Below the pieces are notes generated by a model. The model was not told the origin of the DNA, did not search any database, and saw only the letters and a list, made by a program, of their open reading frames with translations. From Thermococcus chitonophagus (lineage in GTDB: Archaea; Methanobacteriota_B; Thermococci; Thermococcales; Thermococcaceae): 64,000 bases of DNA. Of the stretch, positions 2,471 through 13,813 are shown piece by piece. The stretch's first letter is position 1. Each line of letters starts with the position of its first letter. The translations under genes were made by a program, and so were the position numbers. The stretch lies in assembly GCF_002214605.1 (NCBI RefSeq), contig NZ_CP015193.1, positions 1,034,978 through 1,098,977 of the forward strand, read 5' to 3'.

Positions 2471-2542
2471 GACTACATATGCCAATGTATAAACAAGAGC
2501 ACAGATGCGGACATATGGTCGCAAATGAACATAAACGAAAGG

Positions 2543-2551
2543 TTTTTATAT
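2543..2551 (+). promoter_or_regulatory. BRE/TATA promoter upstream of leader ORF 1
   Basis: CGAAAGG (BRE-like) followed by TTTTTATAT is a good Pyrococcus promoter. The predicted transcription start, about 25 bases on, lies at or next to the ATG at 2576, so the leader ORF would be translated from a leaderless or nearly leaderless message. Confidence 0.6.
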
Positions 2552-2575
2552 GTGAATAGTCTGTTTATTCTCTCG

Positions 2576-2680
2576 ATGATGCAGATGGTGAGAACGATGA
2601 GAAGGATAAATTTAATCACGATAAAATATGTTGAAATCATTAGGTTACTTGTCATAATTCTCATCCTTCTTATCCTATGA
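2576..2680 (+). CDS. Tiny Ile/Leu/Val-rich ORF, candidate leader peptide 1
   Basis: 34 codons, from an ATG at the predicted transcript start to TGA. Nineteen residues are Ile, Leu or Val, and the last eleven (LLVIILILLIL) are all branched-chain, directly followed by the stop codon. A later ATG at 2597 with GGTGAG five bases upstream would give 27 residues. Downstream lie a perfect stem-loop (2701-2725) and the ribosome site of the 129-residue protein gene. The layout promoter, short ORF rich in the pathway's amino acids, stem-loop, gene resembles bacterial attenuators such as the ilv and leu leaders. The rival reading is a tail-anchored membrane microprotein, as the run is about one helix long. 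I infer a regulatory role but cannot prove translation. Confidence 0.5.
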   Translation: MMQMVRTMRRINLITIKYVEIIRLLVIILILLIL

Positions 2681-2700: not shown

Positions 2701-2725
2701 CGAACCCCTCACCTTTTGGGGTTCG
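2701..2725 (+). promoter_or_regulatory. Perfect 8-bp stem-loop between leader ORF 1 and the next gene
   Basis: CGAACCCC (2701-2708) pairs exactly with GGGGTTCG (2718-2725) around a 9-base loop. It sits 20 bases after the leader ORF stop and 24 bases before the GGAGGTG ribosome site at 2750. No strong T-run follows, so it could act on translation or transcript stability rather than as a bacterial-type terminator. Confidence 0.5.
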
Positions 2726-2762: not shown

Positions 2763-3152
2763 ATGGAGTTTGAGACCATGAAGAAGGTGGTGGTTGAGGC
2801 TATGGAGAACGGCGCCCAGTGGGTGGCCGTGACAGTAAAGACTAGAGATGCACCAACTAAGGTAATGGAGGAGTTTGAGGAGTTCCTAAAAAAGCAGGGG
2901 TGGAATGTGAACTTTAGAGCAAACTGGTGGAGCCCAGCAAGGTATGGGGTAGCAGTGTTGGAGGCTCAAAAAGGCGGAAAGAGCAAAGTGCTGATGGTCA
3001 AGTGGGCAGTTTCAAGCAAGGAAGACAAAGTACTGAGAGTTGAAGGCAAGATGGAGAAAGATGCAAGAAAAGAGTTCTACACAATAGTCGATATGGTCAG
3101 TGATGACTTCCTGTATGACACAATCTTGAGAAACATGATGGATAGGTACTAA
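2763..3152 (+). CDS. Hypothetical protein upstream of the ilv-leu operon
   Basis: A 129-residue soluble protein that I do not recognise. It looks like a mixed alpha/beta domain: an N-terminal helix rich in Glu and Lys, a VAVTVK strand, a WNVNFRANWWSP segment with clustered tryptophans, a KVLMVKWAV strand and a long helical tail. No membrane segment is seen. The frame is open from a GTG at 2682, but the ATG at 2763 has the strong ribosome site GGAGGTG seven bases upstream, so I start it there. It lies between the two branched-chain-rich mini-ORFs and points the same way as the ilv-leu operon, which makes a link to that operon possible but unproven. Confidence 0.7.
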   Translation: MEFETMKKVVVEAMENGAQWVAVTVKTRDAPTKVMEEFEEFLKKQGWNVNFRANWWSPARYGVAVLEAQKGGKSKVLMVKWAVSSKEDKVLRVEGKMEKDARKEFYTIVDMVSDDFLYDTILRNMMDRY

Positions 3153-3272
3153 TGGATTTGTCAATTTGATGTAAACCTTGGCCTCTTCCTCTACCAAATT
3201 TCGTTTTGTATATAATTTCCGGATTTTGGAATTATATCTAATATGTCAAGTATACAACAAGAATTGCGAAAA

Positions 3273-3281
3273 TTTATTATA
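3273..3281 (+). promoter_or_regulatory. BRE/TATA promoter of leader ORF 2 and the ilv-leu operon
   Basis: GCGAAAA (BRE) followed by TTTATTATA. The predicted start near 3300 is about 10 bases before the ATG of leader ORF 2, which has a G-rich ribosome site (GGGTGGGGG). No better promoter is seen between this point and ilvB, so this is probably the operon promoter. An imperfect inverted repeat (ATAATTTCC at 3212-3220 against GGAATTAT at 3228-3235) lies upstream and could be a regulator site. Confidence 0.55.
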
Positions 3282-3309
3282 CAAGGTGTGCAGGGTGGGG
3301 GTTTAGGGA

Positions 3310-3468
3310 ATGACTATGAGGGCCGGTGAAATAAGTTGGGTATTCAATCCATTAAGAACATGGCTTGGTGAGAGGGGTAGCAGTTATGATGATTATGTTG
3401 GCAATGGCACAATAATCGTCCTTCTTCTTCTGATTCTCATTATTATTGGACTCATTATCCTCCTCTGA
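3310..3468 (+). CDS. Tiny ORF with Ile/Leu/Val run, candidate leader peptide 2 of the ilv-leu operon
   Basis: 52 codons from ATG 3310 to TGA 3468. The first 34 residues are mixed and polar; of the last 18, 17 are Ile, Leu or Val (IIVLLLLILIIIGLIILL), ending exactly at the stop. It starts about 10 bases after the predicted transcript start and has a purine-rich ribosome site. ilvB follows 77 bases downstream with no promoter of its own, separated by a pyrimidine tract that could be a termination site. Encoding a run of the very amino acids made by the downstream operon is the hallmark of leader-peptide attenuation (E. coli ilvL, leuL, ivbL). A single-helix tail-anchored membrane protein is the alternative. 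Confidence 0.55.
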   Translation: MTMRAGEISWVFNPLRTWLGERGSSYDDYVGNGTIIVLLLLILIIIGLIILL

Positions 3469-3484
3469 AGTAATCAAAGGTACA

Positions 3485-3516
3485 TTCCTCTCCTTTCCTT
3501 TCCCTGTGTCTTTTTC
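3485..3516 (+). terminator. Pyrimidine tract between leader ORF 2 and ilvB, possible conditional terminator
   Basis: Thirty of 32 bases are C or T, ending in a run of five T and one C. Archaeal RNA polymerase terminates at U-rich tracts without needing a hairpin, so this stretch between the leader ORF stop and the ilvB ribosome site could be where transcription ends or continues. This is inference only. Confidence 0.3.
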
Positions 3517-3545
3517 GTGAACTAAACTCTATGGGGGTGGTCTCT

Positions 3546-5240
3546 ATGAAAATGTCCGGCGCGAAGGCTCTGGTAAAGGCCCTGGAAAAGCAGGGCGTGA
3601 AGCATACGTTTGGTATAATAGGTGGAAGCATAATGCCAGTATTTGACGAGCTATTGGACAGTGAAATAAGGCATATAACCACAAGGCATGAGCAGGGGGC
3701 AGCCCATGCAGCAGATGGATATGCAAGGGTCTCAGGAAGGCCAGGAGTTGCAATAACGACCTCGGGTCCAGGAGCAACTAACCTAGTTACGGGAATAGCT
3801 ACCGCCTATATGGACTCCTCACCTATTGTGGCAATAACTGGTCAAGTGCCGACTTACATGGTTGGGAAGATGGCTTTTCAGGAGACCGACATAATCAACA
3901 TAACGAAGCCGATAACGAAGTGGAACTATCAGATACAGAAACCTGAGGAAGTTCCCAAGGCAGTAAAGATGGCATTTACTATAGCGACCCTTGGAAGACC
4001 TGGGCCGACTCTTCTAGACTTCCCGAAAGACGCTCAAACTGGAGAAGGGGAAATGAACTTTGATGTAGACATCTCTCAGCTAGTTACGCCATGGAGACCA
4101 CCAAAGCTTGATGCCTGTCCAGAAGAAGTGAAGAAAGCCGTTGACATGATACTTTCCGCGGAGAAGCCGGTATTCATTGTTGGAGGAGGAGTTGTTTGGT
4201 CAGGGGCAACCGACGAGGTTCTAGCGATAGCCGAGTACTTAATGATACCAATAATGGCAACCTTCATGGGCAAGGGTGCCGTTCCGGAGAATCACCCATT
4301 GTACGTGGGTAACTTGGGAATGCACGGAAAGATAGCAGCAAACAAACTACTCCCTGAGACGGATCTAATAATAGCAGTAGGAATGAGATGGAGCGACAGA
4401 ACTGTTAGTGAATTCGAGAACTTTGCTCCAAATGCAAAGATAATCCACATAGACATAGATCCAAAGGAAGTTGGTAAGAACGTCAAGGCGCACCTTGGAA
4501 TAATAGGCGATGCGAAGAGAGTTCTAAGAGCTATCTACAATGAGATCGTGAGGAGGGCCAAGAAGAGGGAAGATTGGCCGTGGTTTAGAAAGGTTCAGGA
4601 GTTCAAGGAAAAGTACAGGGAAGAATTAGTTCCAATAGATGGGAACTATCTAAGGCCCCCCGAGATCCTTAAGGAATTGAGAAAGCTATTGCCTGAAGAT
4701 GCAATAGTGGCAACGGAAGTTGGTCAAAACCAGATGTGGGTAGCCTTGTTCTTCCCGATACTGAAGCCAAGAACTTTCATAACCTCAGGTGGACTTGGAA
4801 CGATGGGCTTTGGATTCCCGGCAGCGATTGGGGCTAAAGTTGCCAAGCCAGACAAAGTCGTTGTTGATATTGCCGGTGACGGAAGCTTCATGATGTCCGA
4901 AAGGGAGTTGGCTACGGCGGTTAACGAGAACATCCCGGTTATAGTGATAATCCTCAACAACTCCTCCCTGGGAATGGTGGCTCAATGGCAGAGAATGTTC
5001 TACAACAGGCGCTACGTTGCAACGTACTTCAAGAAGAACCCCGATTTTGCCAAACTAGCTGAGGTTTATGGTGCTCAGGGCTTTAGGGCCGAAACTATGG
5101 ATGAGCTGATCAAGGCCGTTAAGGAGGGAATGAAGGCTGACGTTCCTACCGTCATAGATGTCCCAATCCACCCGGAGGATGATGTTCTGCCAATGGTTCC
5201 TCCGGGGGAGCACATCTCGAAGGTCGTAACGAGGTATTGA
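3546..5240 (+). CDS. ilvB: Acetolactate synthase, catalytic subunit
   Basis: A 564-residue thiamine diphosphate enzyme that joins two pyruvates to 2-acetolactate (valine, leucine), or pyruvate and 2-oxobutyrate to 2-aceto-2-hydroxybutyrate (isoleucine). The cofactor-activating glutamate is in [15 protein letters not shown] (Glu49). The C-terminal ThDP/metal motif starts at GDGSFM and ends at NNSSLGM. The middle NAD-like domain is present. I use the ATG at 3546, which has GGGGGTGG upstream, rather than the in-frame ATG at 3531. No regulatory ilvN subunit (ACT domain) gene follows, which is unusual for a biosynthetic operon. ThDP-dependent relatives such as glyoxylate carboligase are unlikely given the ilvC neighbour. 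Confidence 0.93.
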
Positions 5241-12189: not shown

Positions 12190-13813
12190 AAGGGCTCCCC
12201 ACCGTTCCCTTTTTAAAGCTATGGGGCTAACGGATGAGGAGCTTGACAGACCACTCATAGGAATAGCTAACTCATTCAACGAGCTGATCCCTGGTCATAT
12301 ACACCTCAGGAAGATTGCCGAGGCGGTAAAGGCAGGAATCAGGATGGCCGGAGGGACTCCGCTTGAGTTCAATACAATAGGGATCTGCGATGGAATAGCA
12401 ATGAACCACTCCGGAATGAAATATTCGCTCCCCTCAAGGGAGCTTATAGCTGACAGCGTTGAATTAGTCGCTCAGGCTTATCACTTCGATGGAATAGTGA
12501 TGATTGCTTCGTGTGACAAGATAATCCCGGGAATGCTAATGGCTATGGCTAGGCTCGACGTTCCAGCTATTTTCGTTTCAGGCGGCCCCATGCTGCCAGG
12601 CAGGTTTAGGGGAGAGTACGTTGATGTAAAGACCGTTTTTGAAGCAGTGGGTGCCGTAAAGGCTGGAAAGATGAGTCTTGAGGAGCTTAAGCTTCTTGAA
12701 TCCGTAGCCTGTCCTGGTTGCGGCTCTTGTGCTGGAATGTTTACCGCAAACACCATGAATGCACTAACGGAAGCCTTGGGAGTTTCAATGCCGTGGAACG
12801 GAACTGCTCCGGCAGTTTACGCTCACAGGATAAGGATAGCCAAGAAAACGGGAATGCAGATAGTTAAGCTCGTTGAAGAGGACGTCAAGCCAAGCGACAT
12901 AATGACTAAGGAAGCATTTGAAGATGCCATAGCCGTTGATATGGCTCTAGGTGGCTCGACAAATACTGTCCTCCACCTTATGGCAATAGCACATGAGGCA
13001 GGAGTTGACCTAACTTTAGATGACTTCGACAGGATAAGTGAGATAACGCCAACCCTCGCAAAGCTGAGCCCCGCAGGAAAACACTTCGTCGTTGACCTCT
13101 ACGAGGCGGGAGGAATTCTTGGAGTAATGAAGAGGCTTGCTAAGAAGGGGATTATTCACGAGGACAGGATGACAGTTGCCTTGAAGACTGTAAAGGAATT
13201 GCTTGAGAGAGCATTCGTGGCCAGGGATGACGTGATAAGACCACTCGATAATCCTTACTCCCCTAGAGGGGGCATAATGATACTTAGAGGAACACTTGCC
13301 CCAGATGGGGCTGTAATCAAGGTATCAGCCGTTAACGGAGTTACCGTATTTGAAGGAACCGCCAAAGTTTATGACAGCGAAGAGGAAGCCACGAAAGCAA
13401 TCCTGAGCGGAGAAGTTGAGAAGGGCGATGTTGTTGTGATAAGGTACGAAGGCCCAAGGGGCGGCCCAGGAATGAGGGAGATGCTAACTCCCACTTCCGC
13501 TATAGCAGGGATGGGGTTAGATAAAGATGTTGCCTTAATTACAGATGGAAGGTTCTCCGGAGCAACGAGAGGAATTTCAATCGGCCACGTTTCGCCGGAA
13601 GCTGCAGAAGGAGGACCAATAGCCCTAGTCGAGAATGGGGATAGGATAAGGATAGACCTAAAGGCAAAGAGAGTTGACTTACTAGTTGACGAAGGTGAAC
13701 TTGAGGAAAGGAGAAAGAGATGGAAGCCAAAGGTTAAACCCCTCAAAGGGTATCTGAAGAGGTACTCGGAGTTAGTTACATCCTCAAATACTGGGGCAGT
13801 TTATAAATTCTAA
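12158..13813 (+). CDS. ilvD: Dihydroxy-acid dehydratase
   Basis: A 551-residue iron-sulfur dehydratase that makes the 2-oxoacid precursors of valine/leucine and isoleucine, the last shared step before transamination. The cluster cysteines are seen in CDKIIPGM and [17 protein letters not shown]. The C-terminal half has the [19 protein letters not shown] active-site region with its catalytic serine. The frame opens at a GTG (12149), but AAGGAG at 12142 places the start at ATG 12158, inside the end of cimA (32-base overlap). Last gene of the operon; a promoter for the next unit follows at once. Confidence 0.93.

Follow-up and report, generated by a model that had tools for sequence, protein, structure and literature searches.

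Putative leader peptides rich in isoleucine, leucine and valine upstream of ilvB in Thermococcales and other archaeal groups

Introduction

Leader-peptide attenuation is a textbook mechanism of bacterial gene control, and the enterobacterial leaders ilvL, ivbL and leuL are ribosome-mediated attenuators of branched-chain amino acid (BCAA) operons. The locus described here lies in a 64,000-nucleotide stretch of archaeal DNA, which was analysed as a whole (the window), and raises the question of whether an archaeal ilv-leu operon may be controlled in the same way. The original prediction, made from the letters of the window, pointed to a short ORF upstream of ilvB that ends in a run of codons for isoleucine, leucine or valine (ILV). 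It proposed that this ORF encodes a leader peptide rather than a tail-anchored microprotein, and it knew of no established case of attenuation in Archaea. Our search of the open-licence literature likewise found no report of archaeal leader-peptide attenuation; a report that escaped this search is possible. The leader of the Corynebacterium glutamicum ilvBNC operon is described as a bacterial BCAA attenuator (PMC11857589). For Archaea, ribosome profiling of Methanosarcina mazei revealed small ORFs in 5′ untranslated regions that were discussed as possible uORFs, with no mention of isoleucine or attenuation (PMC11456600).

Results

Two leader-like ORFs in series

The predicted ORF, its terminal ILV codons, its stop, the pyrimidine tract and ilvB were all found where the original prediction had placed them (Table 1). 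The ORF, here called leader 2, comprises 52 codons from the ATG at 3310 to the stop at 3466-3468, and codons 35-52 encode IIVLLLLILIIIGLIILL, in which 17 of the 18 residues are I, L or V. Of the 1,956 stops in the window with 18 or more open codons before them, that of leader 2 is the most ILV-rich. Leader 2 is also the only one of 1,083 short ORFs in the window to contain a 12-residue stretch made up entirely of ILV (12/12), the next best having 9.

The second most ILV-rich stop of the window (14/18) belongs to another leader-like ORF (leader 1), which the original prediction did not contain. Leader 1 stands directly before a gene for a conserved protein (gene X), and the window therefore holds two leader-like ORFs in series. 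The order is leader 1, gene X, leader 2, ilvB and the further ilv-leu genes; ilvB is the first of the ilvB-ilvC-leu/ilv genes, which run to position 13813. The start of ilvB is most likely the ATG at 3546, which follows a Shine-Dalgarno sequence, and the start assigned mechanically to this ORF (3531) is probably wrong. In the tract between leader 2 and ilvB, the two non-pyrimidines are G residues at 3506 and 3508. Gene X gave no match above cut-off in Pfam or NCBIfam.

Table 1 Features of the region upstream of ilvB (positions in the window).
Feature	Position	Strand	Description
TATA-like promoter element of leader 1	2541..2552	+	GGTTTTTATATG; found by inspection; TATA-like elements at a similar distance before leader 1 in relatives
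Leader 1	2576..2680	+	MMQMVRTMRRINLITIKYVEIIRLLVIILILLIL*; 14 of last 18 residues I/L/V; directly 5′ of gene X
Hairpin-forming sequence	2701..2725	+	CGAACCCC-N9-GGGGTTCG, then GTTTGTC; in leader 1 spacer; putatively terminator-like
Gene X	2763..3152	+	conserved protein of 129 aa; between leader 1 and leader 2
Palindrome-like element	3243..3260	+	consensus TTGTCAAATATTCAACAA; just 5′ of leader 2 BRE/TATA; conserved in four Pyrococcus genomes
TATA-like promoter element of leader 2	3270..3281	+	AAATTTATTATA; aligned in four Pyrococcus genomes
Leader 2	3310..3468	+	MTMRAGEISWVFNPLRTWLGERGSSYDDYVGNGTIIVLLLLILIIIGLIILL*; alternative start ATG 3316
ILV codon run of leader 2	3412..3465	+	17/18 ILV; proposed stall region
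Pyrimidine/U-rich tract	3485..3516	+	between leader 2 and ilvB; 30/32 pyrimidines; putative termination region
Shine-Dalgarno of ilvB	3533..3542	+	GGGGGTGGTC; from the sequence
ilvB	3546..5240	+	acetolactate synthase large subunit; three TPP-enzyme domains

Comparison within Thermococcales

Relatives of ilvB (E ≤ 1e-100) are present in only 7 of 94 Thermococcales genomes; one of these loci is cut by a contig end, and the other six were used. A search with the whole peptide across Thermococcales returned the query itself and weak matches and missed the counterparts; an unconstrained N-terminus and a low-complexity run make such a search misleading. Leader counterparts were located instead by inspecting the DNA 5′ of the ilvB relatives. 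The best-scoring short ORF was taken as the leader of each locus, and controls were scored identically.

Leader 1 has a counterpart before gene X in all six operons, and leader 2 has one before ilvB in five of them, which gives 11 Thermococcales leaders. In the remaining operon (G068), ilvB follows closely 3′ of gene X with no leader of its own, leader 1 being the only one. Gene X itself occupies the same place in the six operons. The original prediction had proposed a comparison of the ORF across Thermococcales, and this comparison supports the leader-peptide reading, as the ILV run and its position persist and the N-termini differ. The leaders vary in length (about 29-52 aa) and their N-termini are unrelated save between the closest relatives; what is kept is the ILV run abutting the stop. 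In leader 2 of the closest pair (G000 and G008), the last ten residues are identical and the DNA differences there are only synonymous, while the rest is hardly alignable.

Almost all Thermococcales have a more distant gene X paralogue, with about 30% identity, and no ILV leader was seen before it in the examples inspected. One metagenome-assembled genome (MAG), G046, carries leader 1 (L415:1245-1373) and gene X, and ilvB was found neither adjoining gene X nor elsewhere in the assembly. Gene X may be under BCAA control in its own right. Conservation of the peptide in genomes without ilv-leu genes, together with conserved protein sequence outside the run, had been named in the original prediction as evidence against a leader. 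G046 presents the first of these two features as far as ilvB is concerned and lacks the second, since the N-terminus of its leader is not conserved.

Leader-like ORFs in other archaeal groups

Among the first ilvB neighbours compared, ILV-tailed ORFs were also found by ilvB in Archaeoglobus, DHVE2 and other archaeal contigs. A class-wide search detected ilvB in 52 of 59 Archaeoglobi; in 46 of the 50 examined, ilvB is preceded by a short ORF whose final 12 residues include 6 or more ILV. Nearly all of these leaders have their stop 12-40 nt 5′ of ilvB. The exceptions are three loci in which another gene lies directly upstream, ilvB being inside an operon (L129, L124 and L159), and one with no clear leader (L174). 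In Thermoproteota that we infer to be ammonia-oxidiser-like, an ORF with at least 5 ILV in its last 8 residues was found at 25 of 28 loci; no leader was found at most other sampled Thermoproteota ilvB loci. Leaders precede ilvB in one subset of Thermoplasmatota and are missing from another clade. In three MAGs of Thermoplasmata/Euryarchaeota (L071, L080 and L081), the ORFs before ilvB end in LVDLRILRP or LLDLRIVHP, a different conserved leader-like C-terminus.

With a threshold of at least 7 ILV in the last 12 residues, such tails precede ilvB at 5 of 6 Thermococcales and 39 of 50 Archaeoglobi loci. The same scoring gave 0 of 15 and 1 of 29, respectively, before trpC, and 1 of 100 and 3 of 86 before other ORFs of at least 200 aa. 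Shared ancestry means that the leader counts overstate the number of independent events. For ilvB of Halobacteriota outside Archaeoglobi, including methanogen ilvB, no leader was found at any of 40 loci. No Trp-rich leader was found before trpC, so the amino-acid operons of these genomes do not share the leader device as a rule.

Codon and residue bias of the ILV runs

The runs are biased in both codons and residues. Isoleucine is encoded by ATT in 64% of cases in the Thermococcales leaders versus 27% in the genes of the window (Fisher's exact test: p = 2e-10). The difference holds against hydrophobic stretches of the window genes (35%, versus 61% in eight Pyrococcus leaders; p = 0.0015). Valine is encoded by GTC in 67% of cases in Thermococcales leaders versus 17%, and by GTA in 79% of cases in Archaeoglobi leaders versus 9% in their ilvB. 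The preferred codon is not the same in every group, and isoacceptor charging or RNA pairing may underlie this difference. The tails of the 11 Thermococcales leaders contain 12-17 ILV per 18 residues, and uncharged, membrane-like hydrophobic segments of window genes have a mean of 8.2 and a maximum of 12. Phe, Trp, Tyr and Met together account for 3 of 198 residues in these tails versus 48 of 324 in the membrane-like segments. Aligned Archaeoglobi and Thermococcales tails differ by 50 synonymous and 69 nonsynonymous single-base codon changes, counted over pairs that are not independent, and half of the nonsynonymous changes exchange I, L and V for one another. The expectation from all possible changes is 1,456 synonymous to 3,920 nonsynonymous.

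These data bear on the possibility that the ORFs encode a small tail-anchored membrane microprotein that acts in trans, the gene X product and acetolactate synthase being possible partners. A hydrophobic C-terminal stretch of at least 18 residues in Thermococcales would suit such a protein, as would the leader of G046, which accompanies gene X without ilvB. However, nothing outside the ILV run is conserved in the six genomes, many counterparts in other archaea are just 13-20 residues long, and no Pfam or NCBIfam family matches the peptide. The excess of ILV and the scarcity of Phe, Trp, Tyr and Met are unlike membrane-type segments, synonymous codons are biased, and the ORF sits just 5′ of a gene. 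We therefore consider a microprotein unlikely.

A palindrome-like promoter element

A palindrome-like element, which was absent from the original prediction, precedes the leader 2 promoter (Table 1). It has three mismatches to the consensus in the window and 0-1 at ilvB in three relatives. A search with this pattern elsewhere found no further sites above control, the pattern being about as frequent as its reverse. The element is probably a regulator site specific to the ilv operon, and its conservation next to the promoter suggests control by a transcription factor in addition to the leader. In G000, two sites (TTGTCACATATTCAAA..) lie about 200 bp apart (C1:351865-351882 and 352067-352084), and similar pairs occur in G006, G009 and G010.

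The same conservation in four Pyrococcus genomes could be taken to mean that a transcription factor at the promoter is the regulator and that the ORF is a relic or a chance ORF in the 5′ untranslated region. Such an account is improbable in our judgement, because ILV-specific short ORFs recur in this position across several archaeal groups when set against matched controls and because one operon has two ILV-tailed ORFs.

RNA structure and spacers

RNA pairing connected with the leader was clearest in the ammonia-oxidiser-like group. In 13 leaders of this group, all of 19 codons, alignment columns 5-12, at the start of the leader, pair with columns 66-73, which lie just past the stop. Of the cells in this helix, 87% are paired, and two-sided changes are seen at 6 of 8 pairs. 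None of 500 shuffles reached as high a value for paired cells or for covariation, and most slid controls scored far lower. The helix would be blocked by a ribosome occupying the leader. In a second subgroup, the last leader codons and the stop form the 5′ arm of a hairpin, which shows weaker covariation and precedes a T run. In Archaeoglobi, the 5′ part of each leader pairs more strongly with the tail of that leader than with tails from other species (p = 0.0045), and a compensatory pair was seen in one group of five sequences. Several Archaeoglobi spacers between leader and ilvB (L131, L132, L133, L152, L156, L083, L165 and L170) contain short GC hairpins followed by T runs that resemble bacterial intrinsic terminators.

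The covarying helix would also be expected if a riboswitch or a T-box-like RNA sensed the amino acid or the tRNA directly, the ORF being incidental. Rfam, however, has no match in the window and gave a single sub-threshold match, to an unrelated family, among 19 related loci, and no other feature is as constant as the ILV codons. This explanation is very improbable.

In Thermococcales, long-range helices between the leader and the sequence after its stop were not above shuffles as a set (Fisher p = 0.44). Pyrococcus helices of this kind that were convincing by eye, such as that of leader 1 in G004, were rejected for this reason. Compared with other upstream regions, the Thermococcales leader spacers are richer in pyrimidines (p = 0.004) and in T (p = 0.02), and most are 50-80 nt long. 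Archaeal intrinsic termination relies on U stretches (PMC8116511), and FttA is reported to favour RNA that is rich in U some 30-36 nt upstream of its 3′ end (PMC11616081). The U/pyrimidine-rich spacers therefore suggest termination at U tracts or by FttA in Pyrococcus. That a U-rich tract takes the place of a terminator hairpin, as originally predicted, agrees with leader 2, where a scan for hairpin-T terminators found none. It does not extend to leader 1, which is followed by a GC hairpin in both G000 and G008, or to other archaea, which have hairpins or the covarying helix.

The leader may instead act on translation, with a stalled ribosome opening the ribosome-binding site of ilvB or gene X, or with leader and gene coupled translationally. 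The spacers of only 12-40 nt in Archaeoglobi and the pairing of the leader 5′ part with its tail there are in keeping with this reading. So is the Thermococcus-like G021, where the spacer is about 30 nt and the last leader codons are able to pair with the Shine-Dalgarno sequence. The mostly longer, pyrimidine- and T-rich spacers of Thermococcales argue against it, and the leader tail did not pair significantly with the region of the ilvB start, a candidate that we had considered (p = 0.064 in Archaeoglobi and 0.66 in Thermococcales). Action on translation is less likely but has to be taken seriously as an alternative, chiefly where spacers are very short.

Discussion

Comparison of these loci documents the position of the leaders, their ILV-specific composition, their biased codons, their free N-terminus and their recurrence across archaeal groups, as well as predicted RNA pairing tied to the leader in the ammonia-oxidiser-like group and, less strongly, in Archaeoglobi. 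The choice of the original prediction for a leader peptide over a microprotein has gained support from several sides. In six Thermococcales operons the position is kept and the N-termini are free, and the operon has a second leader. Similar leaders precede ilvB in at least three other archaeal groups, and the trpC and methanogen ilvB controls are negative. Codon and residue bias also speak in its favour. Leaders 1 and 2 are very probably cis-acting leader peptides that would tie the expression of gene X and of ilvB-ilvC-leu to charged Ile, Leu and Val tRNA.

We propose the following mechanism. When Ile, Leu and Val are plentiful, the ribosome would reach the leader stop and depart, leaving the spacer exposed. 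Either RNA polymerase would then end transcription in the U/pyrimidine-rich tract, unaided or together with FttA (aCPSF1), or a hairpin would form. When these amino acids are scarce, too little charged tRNA would be available and the ribosome would stall within the ILV codons that abut the stop. The stalled ribosome would cover the spacer or stay coupled to the polymerase; termination or an inhibitory helix would be prevented, and transcription and translation would continue into gene X or ilvB. With the very short spacers of Archaeoglobi and G021, the same stall may free the ilvB start site.

On a broader reading, these loci would represent a widespread, undescribed class of archaeal BCAA leader-peptide attenuators before ilvB, with members in Thermococci, Archaeoglobi, ammonia-oxidiser-like Thermoproteota and some Thermoplasmatota. 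In Thermococcales, two of them in tandem would switch U-tract- or FttA-dependent termination via transcription-translation coupling, without a classical terminator/antiterminator pair. We regard the chances of this broader reading, drawn from sequence data, as evenly balanced.

If the proposal is true, archaea use the position of the ribosome on nascent mRNA as a metabolic sensor. The operon would then lend itself naturally to tests of how transcription and translation are coupled in archaea and of whether the ribosome competes with FttA, as has been proposed. It would also raise the question of whether the device is ancient, was transferred with ilvB or evolved repeatedly. The leader-peptide proposal is directly testable in Pyrococcus furiosus or a related genetic host.

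Like the bacterial BCAA attenuators, the archaeal leaders are short 5′ ORFs that are rich in codons for the products and lie directly before the biosynthetic operon, and stalling is expected to activate it. They differ in their archaeal hosts, in the presence of two leaders per operon and in having the ILV run at the end of the ORF, against the stop. The Pyrococcus spacer, moreover, is U/pyrimidine-rich, and no classical terminator/antiterminator pair was detected there. In several archaeal lineages, again unlike the bacterial systems, the leader ATG follows the TATA box so closely that the transcript probably has little or no 5′ untranslated region.

Escherichia coli tnaC is a case of Rho-dependent leader control in which the signal is the free amino acid acting on the nascent chain. 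As in tnaC, a ribosome held at the end of the archaeal leader would shield downstream RNA from a termination factor. In contrast to tnaC, this factor would be FttA/aCPSF1, or termination would be intrinsic at a U tract, and the presumed signal is codon starvation. Termination by Thermococcus FttA requires U-rich RNA, as is present in the leader spacers, and mutual exclusion of FttA and a coupled ribosome is offered as a hypothesis by the authors of that study, the accessible part of which describes no regulated leader-peptide case (PMC11616081).

A parallel in approach is found in the histidine leaders of bacilli, where leader-peptide control was extended to a new group by comparative sequence analysis, as we propose here for Archaea. 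Before that finding, such systems had to its authors' knowledge been shown only in Proteobacteria and Actinobacteria, and the authors also consider that short frames of this kind may have arisen more than once (Naville and Gautheret 2010, PMC2965389). The bacilli leaders differ from the archaeal ones in that they belong to bacteria, respond to histidine and work with hairpin terminators.
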